Shown here piece after piece: positions 3,689 through 47,624 of a DNA stretch of 48,372 bases. Source of the DNA: Bryobacteraceae bacterium (GTDB lineage: Bacteria; Acidobacteriota; Terriglobia; Bryobacterales; Bryobacteraceae); the NCBI GenBank assembly GCA_014860455.1, contig JACZJQ010000033.1:1-48372 (forward strand). Reading direction: 5' to 3'. Under the pieces are notes generated by a model, which did not search any database, was not told the origin of the DNA, and saw only the letters and a list, made by a program, of their open reading frames with translations. The stretch's first letter is position 1, and each line of letters starts with the position of its first letter. Made by a program: the position numbers and the translations under genes.

Positions 3689-5959
3689 ATGATTCGGGCC
3701 TTGTTGTCCTTTATCGTGACTGGCTCTGCCCTGGTGGGGGCGGCCGCACAGACGACGCATGCAGGAGCAGCGTCGAGTGTGCTGGTAGTCGAGGTGAGGG
3801 ATGAGGCAAAGCAGCCGGTTGCGGACGCGACAGTGAAGATTGGCGGGGTGGCGGGGGTGTTCCGGACGGACAAGGACGGGATAGCGCAGTTGACGGTTGG
3901 AGTGGGGCGGGAGTACGGAATCCGGGTGGAGTCGGCGGAGTACTACCCGGCGAAAGTGGATGGGGTGGAGGTTTCGGCGAACGAACCGTCGCTGGTGGTG
4001 GTGGAGTTGAAGCGGGCGGCGGTGGTGTCGGAGATCCTCGTTGTGACGGCGACGGGCACGGCAACGGAGTTGCAGTCGTCTCCGGTGCGGACGGAAGTGA
4101 TCCAGGCGGCGCTGGCGGACCGGCAGGTGAAGACGACGCTGGCGGAGGCGTTTCAGGCGACGGTATCGGGTGTGCGTGTGGAAACGAACTGCCAGAACTG
4201 CGGGTTCATGCAGATCAGGATGAACGGGCTGGAGGGTCCGTACACGCAGATATTGGAAGACGGGCTGCCGACGTATTCAGGGGTGACGGCGGTGTATGGG
4301 CTGGAGCAGATACCGGCGGCGTTTCTGGAACAGATTGAAGTGGTGAAGGGCGGCAACTCGGCGCTGTATGGGCCGGGTGCGGTGGCCGGAGTGATTAATC
4401 TGATCCGGCGCGAACCGAGAGAGAACCGGTTCCGGTTGGATGCACTGGGCGGGTGGCAGAAGGGGCGGCCGGAGCAGCAGATCGGCGGGGCGGCGCAGAT
4501 TATCGACATACCGGGCGGGTTGTCGGGCGACTTTTTCGTGCGGTCGGTGAACCGGGTGCCGGTGGACCGCGATGGGGACGGATTCAGCGAAATGGGCAAG
4601 CGGCGGCTGGATTCGGGAGGATTCAGCCTGTACCGGAGGTTTATGGAGAACCGGGGCAGGCTGTCGGTGACTGGGGCATTGGCGAGCGAGTTTCGCCGCG
4701 GCGGCGACCAGTTTGAACTTCCGCCGGAGCAGTCCTGGATTACCGAGCAGGTGGATTCGCGGAGGTACTCGCTGGCCGCGAACTGGAATCACACGATTTC
4801 CGCCAATACTTTCTATGCTTTGCGGGCGAGCCATGCATACTACGCACGCAAGTCATACTATGGCTCGGGCATGGATCCGAATGCGTATGGGGACACGCGG
4901 AATCCGGTTTGGGTGACGGACACGCAGGCCGGCCATCAGAAAGGGAGCCATTCGCTTCTGGCTGGCTACCAGGTGTGGTGGGAGCATGTGGAAGACAATG
5001 CGCCGGCGTATAACCGGACGCTAGGAGGGACGTTCAACAACCACGGTGTGTATTTTCAGGACGAATGGCGGCCCACGTCGCGGTTGACGCTGATCGGCGG
5101 AACGCGGGTGGACAAATCGAACCGGTTGGACAAGGCGATCCTCAGCCCGAGGGCGGGGGTTCGGGTGGGGCTCAGCAACAGTCTGGTGGCGAGGGCGACG
5201 GTCTCGACGGGTTTCCGGGCGCCGGCGGTATTCGATGAGGATCTTCACATCGCCCAAGTGGGGGGTGAGGGGTTTGTGCTGCAGAACGCAGGCAGTCTGC
5301 GAGAGGAGAGGTCAGTTAGCTACAGCGGTGGTTTGGACTTCTCCGGACTGGTGATGAGCAGGCGGGTGCAATTGGGGCTGAACCTGTTCCGGACCAATCT
5401 GCATGACGCGTTCACGCTGGCCGAGGATGTGGTGGAGGGCCAGGAGTTCCGGCGGTTGTTGAGGATCAACGGGCCGGACGCGTCGGTGGGCGGAGCGAGC
5501 TTTGACGGGACGCTTCGCCTGACGAACCAGGTCGGGATCCGGGGCGGGTTCACGGCGCAGCACGCGCGGTGGGCGGAGCCGGAGCCGCAGTTTGGGTCGC
5601 GGTCGTTTTTCCGGACGCCGTCGCGGTATGGTTTTCTGGGGACGGACTGGTCGATGCCTGGCGGCGTTGAGTGGTCGCTGACCGCGGACTTCACGGGCAG
5701 GATGATAGCGCCGCACTATGCGGGCTACATCGCCGAGGACCGGTTGGAGACCACGCCGCGGTTTCTGACCTTCAACACGGTAGTCAGCCGGACCTTCGAG
5801 CTTTCCGAGCGTAAGCGGCTGAGACTGTTTCTAAACGTGCAGAACATCGGGGACAGCTACCAGAGCGACCTGGACCGGGGACCGAGCCGGGATTCGGCCT
5901 ACGTTTATGGCCCGAGTGAGATGCGCAGAGCGGTGGTCGGGCTCACTTTCGAGTTCTAG
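3689..5959 (+). CDS. TonB-dependent outer-membrane receptor
   Basis: A 756-residue outer-membrane active transporter. Order of parts: signal peptide (1-21), carboxypeptidase-regulatory-like beta domain (about 30-110), a stretch SEILVVTATGT (114-124) at the TonB-box position, plug domain (about 128-245, with RMNGLEGPYTQILEDGLP and YGPGAVAGVINLI), then a beta-barrel ending in a terminal aromatic (VGLTFEF). The plug contains C168-x-x-C171 (NCQNCG), a pair conserved in a receptor subgroup also seen in Bacteroidota; it might bind a metal or form a disulfide. The substrate is unknown and no partner SusD-like or siderophore gene is adjacent. The divergent neighbour is a thioredoxin, which could act on that cysteine pair (inference). 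Confidence 0.93.
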   Translation: MIRALLSFIVTGSALVGAAAQTTHAGAASSVLVVEVRDEAKQPVADATVKIGGVAGVFRTDKDGIAQLTVGVGREYGIRVESAEYYPAKVDGVEVSANEPSLVVVELKRAAVVSEILVVTATGTATELQSSPVRTEVIQAALADRQVKTTLAEAFQATVSGVRVETNCQNCGFMQIRMNGLEGPYTQILEDGLPTYSGVTAVYGLEQIPAAFLEQIEVVKGGNSALYGPGAVAGVINLIRREPRENRFRLDALGGWQKGRPEQQIGGAAQIIDIPGGLSGDFFVRSVNRVPVDRDGDGFSEMGKRRLDSGGFSLYRRFMENRGRLSVTGALASEFRRGGDQFELPPEQSWITEQVDSRRYSLAANWNHTISANTFYALRASHAYYARKSYYGSGMDPNAYGDTRNPVWVTDTQAGHQKGSHSLLAGYQVWWEHVEDNAPAYNRTLGGTFNNHGVYFQDEWRPTSRLTLIGGTRVDKSNRLDKAILSPRAGVRVGLSNSLVARATVSTGFRAPAVFDEDLHIAQVGGEGFVLQNAGSLREERSVSYSGGLDFSGLVMSRRVQLGLNLFRTNLHDAFTLAEDVVEGQEFRRLLRINGPDASVGGASFDGTLRLTNQVGIRGGFTAQHARWAEPEPQFGSRSFFRTPSRYGFLGTDWSMPGGVEWSLTADFTGRMIAPHYAGYIAEDRLETTPRFLTFNTVVSRTFELSERKRLRLFLNVQNIGDSYQSDLDRGPSRDSAYVYGPSEMRRAVVGLTFEF

Positions 5960-7283: not shown

Positions 7284-8036
7284 CTATATGCCCCTCTCGG
7301 TCGGCCATTTTTTCCGCATAAAAGCGCGCAAGCGGACGATGGCCTGCGTTTTGAGTTGCGAAACGCGGGATTCGTGCAGATCGACGACCTTGGCGATTTC
7401 GCGAAGTGTGAGTTCTTCCTGGTAGTAGAGGCCGAGGACGGTTCGCTCCACGTAGGGCATCCGGGAAATGGCCTGAGCCAGCAGACGGCGGAGTTCGGAG
7501 CGTTCGAGTAGTTTGGATGGAAGGTCCTCGTCGCTGCCGGAGACGAATCGCAGGAGGTCACGACCTTCTTCTTCCGGAGCATGCTGATCGAGACTACCCA
7601 GGCTGAGCCCCCTGACCTCGCCGAGCCACTCATGATATTCCTCCAGCGTCACGCCGACCTCGGCGGCGATCTCTTCCTCGGCCGGGGCGCGTTTGAGGCG
7701 CTGCTCGAGGACTGAGACGGCCTGTTCGATGCGCTTGCTGCGGCGGCGTTGCTGGCGCGGCGCCCAGTCGAGGCCGCGGAGGCTGTCGAGGATCGCGCCG
7801 CGGATCTTGTATTCGGCGTAAGTCTTGAGTTTTACGTTCTGACCGGGGTCGAAGCGGTCGATGGCTGAAATGAGGCCCACGACGCCGGTGGACACAAGGT
7901 CTTCCAGATTAACGCTGTCCGGAAGCCGTTCATGGATGCGGCGCGCGATGAGCCTGACTTGAGGCAGGTGCTCGATGATCACCCGTTCCCGTTCCTCGGA
8001 GGTGAGTGCCGCGGCCGTAGCTTGATATGGATTCAT
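7284..8036 (-). CDS. fliA: RNA polymerase sigma-28 factor FliA
   Basis: 250-residue sigma-70-family factor of the FliA/WhiG type, lacking region 1. Region 2 (about 20-95) has SVNLEDLVSTGVVGLISAIDRFD and KLKTYAEYKIRGAILDSLRGLDW, characteristic of sigma-28. Region 3 spans about 100-165 and region 4 about 190-245, with an HTH at LTLREIAKVVDLHESRVSQL. It directs late flagellar genes; a matching promoter (GCCGATAA -10) lies upstream of flgM at 47063-47090. It sits in the large flagellar operon 27 bp after flhF, so sigma-54 expression of that operon would switch on the sigma-28 stage. FlgM encoded at 46702-47013 is its predicted antagonist. Confidence 0.95.
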   Translation of the reverse strand: MNPYQATAAALTSEERERVIIEHLPQVRLIARRIHERLPDSVNLEDLVSTGVVGLISAIDRFDPGQNVKLKTYAEYKIRGAILDSLRGLDWAPRQQRRRSKRIEQAVSVLEQRLKRAPAEEEIAAEVGVTLEEYHEWLGEVRGLSLGSLDQHAPEEEGRDLLRFVSGSDEDLPSKLLERSELRRLLAQAISRMPYVERTVLGLYYQEELTLREIAKVVDLHESRVSQLKTQAIVRLRAFMRKKWPTERGI

Positions 8037-16100: not shown

Positions 16101-16373
16101 CTATGGCTCGGTGGTTTCCGCGGTCTGGGACGCAGCCAGAAACTCCGAAATCGCCTTGACGTCCTTTCGCATGGCCGCCGTTTGCTCCAACTGGCTGAAC
16201 TGCGTGAGTTGGGTCATGAACTCGACGCCATCGGCGGGATTCATCGGGTTCTGGTATCGCAACTGAGCCACGAGAAGCTGCATGAAGATATCCTGGTTGG
16301 CCAGCCGGTCGGTCATCGCCGCCACATCAGGCGCGGCGCTCGATCCGGCGCCAACTCCATTGATTGCACTCAT
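16101..16373 (-). CDS. flgD: Hook-capping protein FlgD, minimal form
   Basis: 90 residues containing the conserved FlgD N-terminal region: [41 protein letters not shown] (residues about 24-64). FlgD caps the growing hook and allows FlgE to polymerise. Full FlgD is about 220-230 residues with FLN-like and fibronectin-like domains; those domains are absent here, as in some other short FlgD proteins (for example Bacillus-type relatives). The gene overlaps fliK by four bases (ATGA). No frameshifted remnant of a C-terminal domain is seen in the 47 bp before flgE, so the short form seems natural. Confidence 0.9.
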
Positions 16374-18073
16374 TTCCGTCCTCCTACTCCGTCATCAAGG
16401 GCATCCTCGATCTGATCAACCCACCGATCCGCATGCCGGCCCTGCCTCCGGCCGCCGGCATCGTCCTGCCGGAGCCAGGCGCCTGGTTGATTGCCTGGGT
16501 TAGGTCCTGCATCGGCACGAGCCGATTGCGACTCCCGGGAAACGGTCAACTCCTGGCCCGCCGACCAGATGTCGCCCGACAGACCTGAATCCTCAATCGC
16601 TTTGCGCAGTTCGGGCAGTTCGCCCGCAAGCTTCTGGCTCAAACCGGCGTCTTGCGTGCGCGTTACCACATGGACTTCTCCACGCCGTTCGGTGAACTTG
16701 AGGTGAACTGCGGCGCCATCTGCGCCTTCCAACTTGAAGGAGACCTCGCGCACGGTGTTGCCCGCACCACCGGATTCGAAGTCCGGATCAGGCGCTATGG
16801 GTAAGACAGGTGCTGGAGAAACTAGATCGGAGGCTCGACTGGTCGCGCCCGAAGGCATTGACGGCTCGCCCTGGCTGCCGGCCGGGGCGTCAAATGAAAA
16901 CCGGCTATCGGCCAAGTTCGCCGCCGATCCGTGCCCGACGGACGCCGCCGGTTGGCCCCGACTCGTCGCGACTTCGGCCTTGTGGGATGATCGCACAGCC
17001 TCTTGGCTAACCGCGGGCTGGAGGTCGGGCGAAGCTTCATGGCCCGGTTCCGCGGTGGATTCCTGCTCCGGCCGAGCCGGGCGCTGGTCCATGGCGAATG
17101 AGCCTGTCCTTCCGGAGAGTCCCAGCCGGGCGGAGGCGCTTCGAGATTCGCCAGAAATGGGAGCACCCGTGGCACTCGCGTTGCCTGAAGTCTGGCTTGG
17201 GCCCAGCGGCTTCAGAACGGCTTCGAAGACGAGCGAACCTCCGCCATCATCGGCGGCCTGCTCGGACGGAAGCCCATCGAGAGCGGTCATGACCGGCTCA
17301 GGCACGGCGCCGGATTCGACCTCCGGCCTCACATTTAGCCTTTGCGACCGCGCCGCCACGATCGATGTCTGCAAGATATTCAACCGGTGGAAGGGCGAAC
17401 CAGCAACCGGGCCGGGTTGTCCAGCTGCGCCGGAGCCGGCCGATGCTGGCAGTTCCCGCTGCCCCGACAGCGGTTCAGAAACGGCACCGCTACCGCCGCC
17501 TGAGGATGTGGTTTCAGATACGGATTCATCGGCGGCAGTGAGTCCGAGACGGGTGAGAGCAGGCGGCGGCATGGATTCCCTGGGCAGAACGGCCGGGCCG
17601 GTGGCGACCAGAGCAATGGCGGATCTCGCCGGGAAAAGGTCTTCCTCGATCAAGCGGGCCGGACCGTCATCTGCGGTTCGGGGCCGGTTTGGCGCCAGTT
17701 TCTCGGTCAGGCTGGTGGAAATGCCCTCAGCCTTGCACTCATCCGAAGACACCGGCACGACGATATCCGGTCTTACGTCTCCGGCGCCAGCAATCGGCAG
17801 GCGGATGATGGCGTGAACACGCTGCATAAGCGCGACCAGCATCGACATCGGCGAGCCGGGAACTGGCGCGGCCAGCGGCTCAGTCGGGCCTTGCCGATCT
17901 ACTCCCGACTCGGGTTCCACCGGTTGCCAGGGGGTACCGGTGCTGGGCGTGTCCATGCCCGCATGATCCAGCGCGATCTCCATTTCAGGGGAGAAGGCCC
18001 CGTTCTGCGCGGATTCGCCGGGGAAGCCCTCGATCGGGGCTTGATTGGCAGATATGGGCGGTGGTGGCATCAT
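16370..18073 (-). CDS. fliK: Hook-length control protein FliK
   Basis: About 567 residues. The first 450 are low-complexity Pro/Ala/Ser/Gly-rich sequence, as expected for the disordered ruler part. The C-terminal Flg_hook domain is recognisable at [52 protein letters not shown]; it would act on FlhB to stop hook export. The frame also has a GTG at 18091, but the predicted sigma-54 transcript starts near 18093, so I favour the ATG at 18073 (or 18070); no good ribosome site marks either. It heads the minus-strand flagellar operon and overlaps flgD by 4 bp. Confidence 0.85.
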
Positions 18074-18103
18074 CAGCAGGCCAGGTTGCACGGTTGGACA
18101 AGT

Positions 18104-18119
18104 TGCAGGTCTGATGCCA
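18104..18119 (-). promoter_or_regulatory. Sigma-54-type -24/-12 promoter for fliK operon
   Basis: On the minus strand the sequence TGGCATCAGACCTGCA has GG and GC separated by exactly ten bases (GG at 18118-18117, GC at 18106-18105), fitting TGGCACG-N4-TTGCA at all but three consensus positions. The predicted start is near 18093, just upstream of fliK. Function inferred from motif and place; the sigma-54 gene itself is not in the window. Confidence 0.6.
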
Positions 18120-18180
18120 GTGGGCGCAGTTGAGCGTTTTCATGGAGTTGCGCTGAAGACCGGTCGGGGGGGGCATCTGG

Positions 18181-18240
18181 ATTCCGGAATGGCACACCGC
18201 TTCGGACCATCGCCGTGCCAATGTGGGACGGTCACCGTCC
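18181..18240. promoter_or_regulatory. Cluster of dyads between divergent flagellar promoters, candidate activator sites
   Basis: Three inverted repeats lie between the two sigma-54-type promoters: ATTCCGGAAT (18181-18190), TGGCAC(18191-18196)...GTGCCA(18215-18220), and the perfect 7-bp-arm palindrome GGACGGT-c-ACCGTCC (18226-18240, centre 18233). Sigma-54 promoters need upstream-bound NtrC-family activators, and these dyads sit about 75-120 bp from the fliK start and 55-115 bp from the flgF start. Which of them is bound, if any, is not known. Confidence 0.4.
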
Positions 18241-18268
18241 AGTCCATTGATTTGACAGGCTTTTGTCT

Positions 18269-18285
18269 TTGGTCCGGCGATTGCC
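18269..18285 (+). promoter_or_regulatory. Sigma-54-type -24/-12 promoter for flgF operon
   Basis: TTGGTCCGGCGATTGCC has GG (18271-18272) and GC (18283-18284) separated by exactly ten bases and matches TTGGCACG-N4-TTGCW except at three positions. The predicted start is near 18295, followed by a GGTGA ribosome site seven bases before the flgF ATG. It mirrors the minus-strand element for fliK. Confidence 0.6.
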
Positions 18286-18309
18286 TATCTCAAGGCTGGT
18301 GACGATCTA

Positions 18310-19050
18310 ATGGACCCGCTCACAACCGCCGCCGCCGCTGGGATGCGGTCGAGAATGGATGCGCTCGATCTGCTGGCTAACAATATGGCCAATAGTTCCA
18401 CGCCGGGCTACAAAGCCGATCGCGAATCCTACAACCTCTATATGTCGGCCGAGGCGGCTGCCGAGGCGACGGGTTCTAGTGTGCGATCTCCGCTGGTGGA
18501 GAGTCAATGGATCGACTTGAGCCAGGGTGCGCTGCGGGCGACGGGGAATGCGTCGGATGTGGCAATCAGCGGCTCCGGTTTTTTGTTGGCCGAAAGCCCA
18601 AACGGTGTGTTGTTGAGCCGCGGGGGGACGTTGCGCGTGACTGGCGACGGCAAGCTGACCACGCAAGACGGCTATGAACTGGTCACTGTCGGGCCGCGGC
18701 GAATCAAGGCCGATCCGGGCCGGCCCGTGGAGATCGACAATGCCGGGGTTGTCCGTCAGGAGGGCGGCATCCTTGGACAGTTGAGGCTGGTGGAGGCGCC
18801 ACCGGCAGGCGAACTGGCGCGCCGGGATGGGGTGTACATGAGGTTGGACACGCGGCGGTTAGGTGAGTTGAAGCCGGCGTCGGCCGAACTCCGGCAAGGC
18901 CACCTTGAGTCCTCCAACACGGGACCGGCGGTGACGGCCGCCAGACTGATCGGGATCCTGCGTCAGTTTGAGTCGCTGCAGAAGGCGATCCAGATCGGCG
19001 GGGAGATGAACCGCCGGGCGGTGGAAGAGGTGGCAAAGATCCACCCATGA
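18310..19050 (+). CDS. flgF: Flagellar proximal-rod protein FlgF
   Basis: 246 residues. The N-terminal rod signature NNMANSSTPGYKADR (about 25-39) and the central block QGALRATGNASDVAISGSGFL identify the FlgF/FlgG rod family. The C-terminal helix (QFESLQKAIQIGGEMNRRAVEEVAKI) closes the D0 domain. Placement directly before flgG and moderate length favour FlgF. It builds the proximal rod. First gene of the plus-strand operon, with GGTGA as ribosome site and a sigma-54-type promoter immediately upstream. Confidence 0.92.
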   Translation: MDPLTTAAAAGMRSRMDALDLLANNMANSSTPGYKADRESYNLYMSAEAAAEATGSSVRSPLVESQWIDLSQGALRATGNASDVAISGSGFLLAESPNGVLLSRGGTLRVTGDGKLTTQDGYELVTVGPRRIKADPGRPVEIDNAGVVRQEGGILGQLRLVEAPPAGELARRDGVYMRLDTRRLGELKPASAELRQGHLESSNTGPAVTAARLIGILRQFESLQKAIQIGGEMNRRAVEEVAKIHP

Positions 19051-46701: not shown

Positions 46702-47013
46702 CTAGCGCGGCCCTTCGGCCCGCCCGGTTTCAATCGAGTCTTCGATCATCCGATCGGCAACGTACTGGGCATCCGCCTCATACTTGCCGCTGGCGACCAA
46801 CTTCGACAACTGGTCCAGCCGCGCCTTGGACACGTCTGAGTTCGCATCCAGGGACTGTACGTTTTCGGCTAGGCTCGAAAGCTGAACCTGGTCGCTCTGG
46901 CCTATCCTGCCCGGCTGCCTGTCGCCTGACGGCTTCTGCGCCTGAATGTTCTGGTCGACCGCTTTGGCCGGCGTTAGACCTGGCGGAGGTAAATTCTTGT
47001 CGTCAATTCGCAT
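46702..47013 (-). CDS. flgM: Anti-sigma-28 factor FlgM
   Basis: 103 residues from the ATG at 47013; the frame is open far upstream but the FlgM-type start MRIDDKNLPPP sits here, just downstream of a sigma-28 promoter. The N-terminal half is disordered and polar (as needed for export through the hook), and the C-terminal half carries the FlgM fold: SDQVQLSSLAENVQSL, VSKARLDQLSKLVASGKYEADAQYVADRMIEDSI. It binds and inhibits FliA until the hook is complete and FlgM is secreted. Head of the flgM-flgN-flgK-flgL operon. Confidence 0.9.
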   Translation of the reverse strand: MRIDDKNLPPPGLTPAKAVDQNIQAQKPSGDRQPGRIGQSDQVQLSSLAENVQSLDANSDVSKARLDQLSKLVASGKYEADAQYVADRMIEDSIETGRAEGPR

Positions 47014-47062
47014 TTGTGTCCGATCCAGCCGCAGAATGCGGAAGGACCAAGCCTCACCCAGA

Positions 47063-47090
47063 TTATCGGCCGAAGCACCGGAGGGTCTTA
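47063..47090 (-). promoter_or_regulatory. Sigma-28 (FliA) promoter of flgM operon
   Basis: Minus-strand -10 element GCCGATAA (47070-47063) is an exact match to the sigma-28 consensus. TAAG (47090-47087), close to the -35 TAAA, lies 16 bases upstream (15 is ideal). The predicted start is near 47055, giving a leader of about 42 bases before flgM. Makes flgM a target of FliA, the classic feedback loop. Confidence 0.8.
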
Positions 47091-47213
47091 GCAAAAAACG
47101 CACAGAACTGGAATTTGGCGGCGATCTGTGACCTGGGACACCTTTGAGGAGCCATTCCATATCCCGAAGGAATATACCGCCTAAGCGAAGAGGACTAGCC
47201 CATTGGGGAAGGT

Positions 47214-47624
47214 TCAGTCGAGAGAAAGAAAGCGCAGCCACATTCCAGCGGACTCGCGCTTAGGCTCTTTCCTCGGGCACTGGGCCGACTGGGGGCTCGG
47301 CGGTTCCAAAGATTGAAGGATCGGATCGGGGCTGCAACCTATGGCGGCGGCGTATTGCCGGACATAGCTACGGCTCAGGAGTCCGCCGGGGAGGTCTTTG
47401 AAACGTCCTTCCTCGATGGCGCGGAGGAAGTGTTTGCCGATCTTGGTGGAGCTTTCGATCTGGTCGAGACTGACTCCGGCGGCTATGCGCAACTCGACCA
47501 ACGAATTGCACTGAGACCCATGCGCGCCATTAAGATTAGCGGCCAAGTTCCTGGAACCTTCTCTCGGCGAGTCCCCATGGAGGGGCCAGACCTTCAGATT
47601 ATCATACCGGGGTGTTGTGTTCAT
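47214..47624 (-). CDS. RodZ-type helix-turn-helix protein, HTH domain only
   Basis: 136 residues. Residues about 43-100 (VELRIAAGVSLDQIESSTKIGKHFLRAIEEGRFKDLPGG, SRSYVRQYAAAIG) form the HTH_25/RodZ N-terminal domain, which in RodZ binds MreB in the cytoplasm. The membrane helix and periplasmic domain of RodZ are absent; the protein ends soon after with a Pro/Arg-rich tail. It may be a soluble regulator or a shortened RodZ relative. It lies 21 bp downstream of mutL and 144 bp upstream of the flgM promoter start, so it may be co-transcribed with mutL. Start chosen at ATG 47624; no strong ribosome site. Confidence 0.75.
   Translation of the reverse strand: MNTTPRYDNLKVWPLHGDSPREGSRNLAANLNGAHGSQCNSLVELRIAAGVSLDQIESSTKIGKHFLRAIEEGRFKDLPGGLLSRSYVRQYAAAIGCSPDPILQSLEPPSPQSAQCPRKEPKRESAGMWLRFLSLD

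Follow-up and report, generated by a model that had tools for sequence, protein, structure and literature searches.

The flaN and flbG genes of Caulobacter form a divergent pair. Sigma-54 operons for rod and hook components, with palindromic activator sites, occur in Caulobacter, Desulfovibrio, Campylobacter, Vibrio and Pseudomonas, according to the sections of two papers drawn on here (PMC3333781, PMC7064773). In the section of the first that deals with binding sites, the FlbD site reads CCCGGCA-N5-TGCCGGG and the Desulfovibrio DVU1063 site GGCA-N4-TGCC (PMC3333781); the corresponding section of the second places sigma-54 rod and hook operons under FlgR, FlrC or FleR two-component control within the flagellar hierarchy (PMC7064773). 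In Pseudomonas fluorescens lacking FleQ, NtrC was rewired to the flagellar regulon during laboratory evolution (PMC5349173), a case of regulator replacement without loss of the regulon in the excerpt of a review used here (PMC13325599). Judging by titles, we found no paper on sigma-54, RpoN or FleQ in the flagellar control of Acidobacteria or Bryobacter, and the string "acidobact" is absent from the main text of one broad sigma-54 survey.

Here we describe the gap between two divergent flagellar operons in a draft genome of a soil bacterium of the Bryobacteraceae (Acidobacteriota), 5.29 Mb long, in 356 contigs and 95% complete. The gap lies on contig C96, which is the whole stretch of 48,372 nucleotides analysed, hereafter the window; among named organisms, it is closest to Candidatus Solibacter and to metagenome genomes of Bryobacteraceae. 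Comparison with related sequences leads us to think it probable that the gap is a bidirectional class-II flagellar sigma-54 promoter with a shared enhancer, in a clade that has lost a FleQ-like activator and in which another activator took over.

Leftward from the gap run fliK, flgD, flgE, fliO, fliP, fliR, flhB, flhA, an SRP54-type gene (flhF by its position), a sigma-28-type gene and a fliM/N-family gene, and rightward flgF, flgG, flgA, flgH, flgI and a rod-binding gene (table 1). The flgD gene (16101-16373) encodes just 90 amino acids, and its match is to the N-terminal FlgD domain. A GTG at 18091 lies about 2 nt from the predicted minus-strand transcript start, and the start of fliK is therefore more likely the ATG at 18073 or 18070. 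Further along the window, flgK, flgL and an open reading frame with a FlgM domain occupy 43.8-47.2 kb. The flgB row of the same genome is on contig C31, where flgB, flgC and fliF were assigned by Pfam, and fliD and flagellin are on contig C355. The fliA-like gene in the leftward row would tie the fliK-side promoter to the late genes. Sigma-28-like sites were seen at 47064-47090 of the window (minus strand), inside the long FlgM-domain reading frame (46702-47241), whose true start is probably further downstream, and before fliD in L140 (2740-2765, plus strand). They are two of the 11 matches to a sigma-28 consensus in the three sequences scanned and may be due to chance; they fit a hierarchy in which sigma-54 is followed by sigma-28.

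Table 1. Features of the divergent flagellar locus, in window coordinates
Feature	Position	Strand	Remarks
TonB-dependent receptor gene past the fliM/N gene	3689..5959	+	On the side that holds the FleQ-like activator gene in four relatives
fliA-like sigma-28 gene, leftward row	7284..8036	-	Pfam sigma-70 regions 2, 3 and 4; named by gene order
fliK, first gene of the leftward operon	16370..18073	-	Named from a weak match to PF02120 (E 0.0025, below cut-off) and position; flgD and flgE next
Predicted sigma-54 -24/-12 box, fliK-flgD-flgE-fliO-fliP-fliR-flhB-flhA-flhF-fliA-fliM/N operon	18104..18119	-	TGGCATCAGACCTGCA; GG-N10-GC, score 8.7
First predicted activator dyad	18180..18196		GATTCCGGAATGGCACA; clade motif; held-out rank 1/48356 (width 17), 7/48358 (width 15)
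Second predicted activator dyad	18214..18230		CGTGCCAATGTGGGACG; held-out rank 5/48356 (width 17), 2/48358 (width 15)
15-bp palindrome	18226..18240		GGACGGT-C-ACCGTCC; 7-bp arms, centre base unpaired; right arm not conserved in L023/L052
Predicted sigma-54 -24/-12 box, flgF-flgG-flgA-flgH-flgI operon	18270..18285	+	TGGTCCGGCGATTGCC; GG-N10-GC, score 11.1
flgF, first gene of the rightward operon	18310..19050	+	Pfam rod/hook domains

A preliminary description of this DNA had proposed a sigma-54 promoter in each direction and activator sites in the space separating the two, on the basis of a GG-N10-GC element near the first gene on either side, and had suggested a search of the genome for rpoN and an NtrC-family regulator. 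Both elements are present, at plausible distances from the start codons on the two strands, and transcripts would be expected to start near 18296 for the flgF operon and near 18093 for the fliK operon. Moreover, the genome has one copy of rpoN (PF04552, E 1.2e-58), and sigma-54 activator domains (PF00158) gave 19 strong and three weak matches. The boxes were scored with weights based on the published -24/-12 consensus, not learned from these genomes. On this scale the plus-strand box comes second in the whole 48 kb, both strands counted, in which two positions score at least 11. The minus-strand box is weak by itself, since 17 positions on both strands score at least 8.7, and for this reason the gaps of relatives were compared; it is conservation that supports this box.

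The comparison covered 47 distinct gaps, 40 of them sequences upstream of flgF and seven recovered by tblastn from among loci in which the pattern used had missed the flgF start. Ten duplicate loci were removed and L068 and L080-L083 left out, and the near-identical pairs L058/L059, L062/L063, L050/L074 and L055/L056 were retained. A plus-strand box scoring at least 8 stands at -46 to -26 of flgF in 43 of the 47 gaps, and a facing minus-strand box scoring at least 8 at -222 to -181 in 28 of the 44 that are long enough; other 21-bp bins on either strand gave 0-2 of 44, except for one plus-strand bin overlapping the plus box. The two boxes together (plus at least 8, minus at least 7.5) were found in 36/47 gaps, with a median separation of 169 bp (quartiles 167 and 177), and the minus box differs by one substitution in the sister species. 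The two family f3 genomes tested (G044, G049) have the same two-box layout; outside the order, G057 has the plus box only and G058 no box scoring at least 8. Sigma-54 boxes with scores of at least 8 were also counted by hand 27-32 bp before flgB, in 22 of 29 regions. That the boxes and dyads arose by chance in a gap rich in GC, with sigma-70 promoters serving the operons, is very improbable: a score such as that of the minus box is common, but the conservation across the gaps against a flat background, together with rpoN, speaks against it. Two of the records, titled Arcobacter sp. and Nevskia soli (L055, L077), cluster by FlgF and FlgG with Bryobacteraceae, and these titles are probably wrong.

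Between the two boxes, conserved dyads of the kind bound by activators were found. A palindrome, GTnCCAAnTTGGnAC, is common to ten loci that form a monophyletic group in a tree of FlgF and FlgG (support 1.0; sister L028), to which the window belongs and which we call its clade. Its log-likelihood at width 15 is 143.7 against 30-39 in six shuffles, the shuffle controls for both dyad motifs described here preserving base composition only. When positions were ranked by a matrix whose training set left out both the window and its sister, the two window dyads were among the best-ranked positions, though not alone at the top. They lie 34 bp apart, centre to centre, with centres near -74 and -108 from the expected flgF start and -95 and -129 from the expected fliK start. 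The sister species, when aligned, matches both dyads letter for letter, and much of the surrounding sequence is variable. Dyads of this type are present in 9/10 clade loci, in two copies in seven of the ten. Outside the clade a single copy occurs in 8/36 gaps and a double one in none, and the control pieces of the window gave 0/343.

The second dyad has its core, GTGCCAATGTGGGAC, at 18215-18229, and its left half is TTGGCACG (18221-18214, minus strand), the third -24 box that the preliminary description had thought might be part of a binding site; that guess is borne out to the extent that the box is half of a conserved GTnCC-N5-GGnAC dyad. The same text had proposed a comparison of related genomes for conserved dyads and had drawn attention to a perfect 15-bp palindrome centred at 18233. 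Two GTnCC-N5-GGnAC dyads proved conserved. The palindrome does exist, but its right half lies in the variable sequence, not being conserved in the sister species, and for this reason it is probably a chance, non-functional match and was ruled out as a binding site. Three inverted repeats had been counted in the gap; our search reported one (exact seed of 6, length at least 7, arms within 60 bases).

The core of the clade dyad, CCA-N3-TGG, presumably resembles NtrC sites. With at most one mismatch, the clade pattern matches 11 sites in its own genome and its reversed form, used as a control, matches 35, so the pattern alone is insufficient to define a regulon. Clade-type matches before flgB in the clade fall inside apparent neighbouring coding sequence and are hence uninformative. 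Another place in this genome, L365 (G000 C275:10848, 1500-1984), has two clade-type dyads 51 bp apart and, about 100 bp on, a sigma-54-like box followed by a 61-amino-acid reading frame; the same activator may act there as well.

The position of two conserved dyads midway between the promoters points to one activator for both operons. Two dyads, in a genome with so many activators, could also mean that each promoter of the same layout has a dyad or an activator to itself and that the operons are controlled independently. We regard this as improbable, given that both dyads fit one motif and sit midway, that their 34-bp spacing recurs in five of the ten clade loci and that the separation of the two promoters is nearly constant.

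Most gaps outside the clade carry a different dyad, CGGCAA-N4-TTGCCG, hereafter the family dyad. A motif search in the central part of 38 gaps, of which the clade contributed seven, gave it as the palindrome gCGGCAAnATnTTGCCGc; the log-likelihood at width 18 was 235.5, and four shuffles gave 33-44. At scores of at least 11 it was found in 31/36 non-clade gaps, most of which had also trained the matrix, and two copies were present in 20/36, mostly 28-30 bp apart; L046 was excluded from the count as short. Only one of the ten clade loci has such a match. Among control pieces of 139 bp, 2/343 from the window matched and 52/1960 from the loci of relatives, true sites included. Additionally, the matrix was applied to the regions before flgB as an independent test and matched 19/25 of those outside the clade and 0/4 of those within; seven of these regions have double family dyads with a spacing of 17-19 bp. 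L168 is without sequence before flgB, and in a few rows (L164, L169) it is uncertain which codon starts the gene. The presence of family dyads before both flgF and flgB supports, at the level of predicted sites, a common activator for rod, hook and basal-body genes.

In four loci, family and clade dyads overlap with half-sites in common: L062 and L063, with dyads at about -121/-112 and -92/-83, and L050 and L074, at about -122 to -103. Such overlaps are a possible route between the two site types.

We found no activator gene in the window, on C31 or C355, or in the loci of relatives, which mostly reach at most 6 kb to either side of flgG. In the outgroup genome G044, the gene directly before flgB is an activator, and its relative in G011 (L193) was searched for in 61 genomes. 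It scored 342-454 bits in 31 others and at most 320 in the rest; the 340-bit line for a FleQ-like orthologue was set after the scores had been seen, with G037 (342 bits) borderline. By this line, of the 39 genomes that have flgG or flgC, 30 carry the FleQ-like gene, against two of the 22 that have neither (Fisher p 4e-7, uncorrected for kinship), the two being G037 and G012. The copy in G012 (C85:1989-2969, L289), a genome in which flgG and flgC were not found, has one in-frame stop, as expected from decay after the loss of flagella.

Layouts picked for linkage in eight genomes place the FleQ-like gene directly before flgB (G049, G053, G044) or near it (G058), between the fliM/N gene and flgK (G031, G022, G016) or adjoining the fliM/N gene (G024). 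By the places listed, no more than about 25 kb separate it from flagellar genes in 11 of the 32 positives, the eight laid out among them, so that linkage is seen in relatives; in G011, G033 and G034 it shares a contig with flgG at a distance of more than 100 kb, and in others it is on a separate contig. When the full-length protein was compared with solved structures, FleQ (295 bits) and ZraR (294.6 bits) tied; the helix-turn-helix alone gave E 1.6e-6 for FleQ against 0.003 for ZraR. The receiver-like N-terminus of the G031 protein reaches 24.5 bits, against a Pfam receiver cut-off of 30.2, and such N-termini are, by eye, without the usual aspartate.

Across 34 genomes, dyad type was compared with the FleQ-like gene and gave counts of 22/4 against 3/5 (Fisher p 0.017), to be read as few independent events, the replacement in the clade counting as a single one. 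In this table G010 was scored as lacking the family dyad, though one (18.7) precedes flgB in an uncounted locus. Three flagellated genomes, G005, G019 and G018 (62% complete), have family dyads and no FleQ-like gene was found in them, in G005 also not within 6 kb past the fliM/N gene; G017, G025 and G036 have the gene and no family dyad above threshold.

In the search for a replacing activator, L002, L008, L009, L012, L014 and L016 had a reciprocal best hit in every one of the five clade genomes, three activator fragments of G008 (L353-L355) being left out of the comparison; L006, L011, L019 and L020, each absent from one of G001 and G008 (both 84% complete), remain candidates. L008 is the only one of the six without a reciprocal hit in G011, G012 and G023, and its neighbours are not flagellar; inspection by eye of the reading frames beside L006, L008 and L009 revealed no flagellar gene. 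L006 and L008 each stand beside a small and a longer gene (L144 9178-12744, L147 7609-11161), which by eye seem to encode an archaemetzincin-type protein and a histidine kinase; the module has apparently been duplicated. Two further activators were rejected as family-wide flagellar activators: the PAS-type L007 has long, strong N-terminal matches in only 7/60 other genomes, and L013, with an atypical receiver, has no strong match to its receiver-like part in the 60 others (best 51.5 bits).

Among the candidates, L002 has the best flagellar linkage in relatives. Five places picked from the matches of the search with L193 put an activator of its type beyond the fliM/N gene, at a distance of 6-8 kb, in G005 and G008 (L380, 15945-17303, in the latter) and on a flagellar contig in G007, G014 and G034 (loci among L376-L379), so the FleQ-like gene is not the sole activator near flagellar genes. 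The type is present in all eight genomes compared. Beside L002 itself, in the window's genome (L154), no flagellar gene was found, and we regard L002 as no more than a candidate for the activator that took over.

The FleQ-like gene was not found in G000-G003 and G008, that is, in any of the five clade genomes tested. It may be that no replacement took place in them and that the clade's FleQ-like activator is too diverged or unassembled, its site having drifted along, or that an older activator of the L002 type serves the whole family. These are drafts (G001 and G008 84% and G000 95% complete), and the FleQ-like gene diverges fast, with 54-67% identity to the query across the sample. Moreover, the sister lineage L028 (genome G014) combines the two dyad types with the FleQ-like gene; the presence of the L002 type in all eight genomes compared, and its place near a flagellar operon in two that lack the FleQ-like gene, G005 and G008, would suit the second version. 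Nevertheless, the five absences include G002 and G003, which are 97-98% complete and whose contigs bearing flgG or flgC contain no activator domain. The best match in each clade genome is an ordinary activator of about 48-51% identity, such as that of the window's genome (301 bits, 51%), which does not place this locus in a FleQ regulon. An L002-type gene is also present in G012 and G023, in which no flagellar gene was found, and this argues against it as the family driver. Continuity of an old activator, in either version, is therefore in our judgement unlikely, though it is the most serious competitor of a replacement.

The changed dyads of the clade, and the fact that no FleQ-like gene was found in its genomes, suggest instead that the regulator was swapped in nature and the flagellum kept. 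In the model that we infer from the computed boxes, with their conservation and spacing, the two dyad types and the distribution of the FleQ-like gene, RNA polymerase with sigma-54 would be held at the two facing -24/-12 boxes, and an enhancer-binding activator on the two tandem dyads, approximately midway, would loop to either promoter and start transcription. Hook and export genes would thus be switched on together with rod and ring genes, and fliA would be carried along for the late genes. In most of the flagellated relatives sampled, the protein bound at the CGGCAA-N4-TTGCCG dyads would probably be the FleQ-like one. In the window's clade, the FleQ-like gene would have been lost and the dyads turned into GTnCC-N5-GGnAC as a different activator took over. 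To the fuller history, in which one monophyletic branch of Bryobacteraceae lost its FleQ-like master activator, gained another and turned over its dyads while keeping the promoter layout of about 169 bp, with the L028 lineage as an intermediate that has both dyad types and the old activator, we would give an even chance.

Several known systems resemble this locus in part. The FlbD-controlled sigma-54 promoters of Caulobacter (ftr sites) likewise serve hook and rod operons through palindromic activator sites, and the FlbD and DVU1063 sites, in the form given by the sections cited above, are close to the family dyad, which can be written GGCA-N6-TGCC; the GTnCC-N5-GGnAC of the window's clade differs from the FlbD site so given. 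None of ten activators tested (eight of the 19 in the window's genome and two of G011) reaches the NCBIfam cut-off for FlbD (750 bits), and none of the ten that for FlgR. The systems of FlgR, FlrC and FleR, as far as the cited section describes them, are alike in their sigma-54 rod and hook operons, but no activator gene was found in the window. Master activators of the FleQ/FlrA type resemble the FleQ-like protein of the relatives in the helix-turn-helix, the full length tying with ZraR, and no such gene was found in the window's genome and its clade. The closest parallel is that of P. fluorescens, in which a flagellar sigma-54 regulon likewise outlived the loss of its FleQ activator; there, however, a second activator was mutated in the laboratory, whereas here a natural clade is concerned and the binding sites would have changed too (PMC5349173). 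If our reading is right, the locus offers a natural case of master-regulator replacement, with the states before, between and after in related genomes, a regulatory scheme for the flagella of Bryobacteraceae and a short, directly testable list of candidate activators, and would be the natural counterpart of the laboratory rewiring from FleQ to NtrC.
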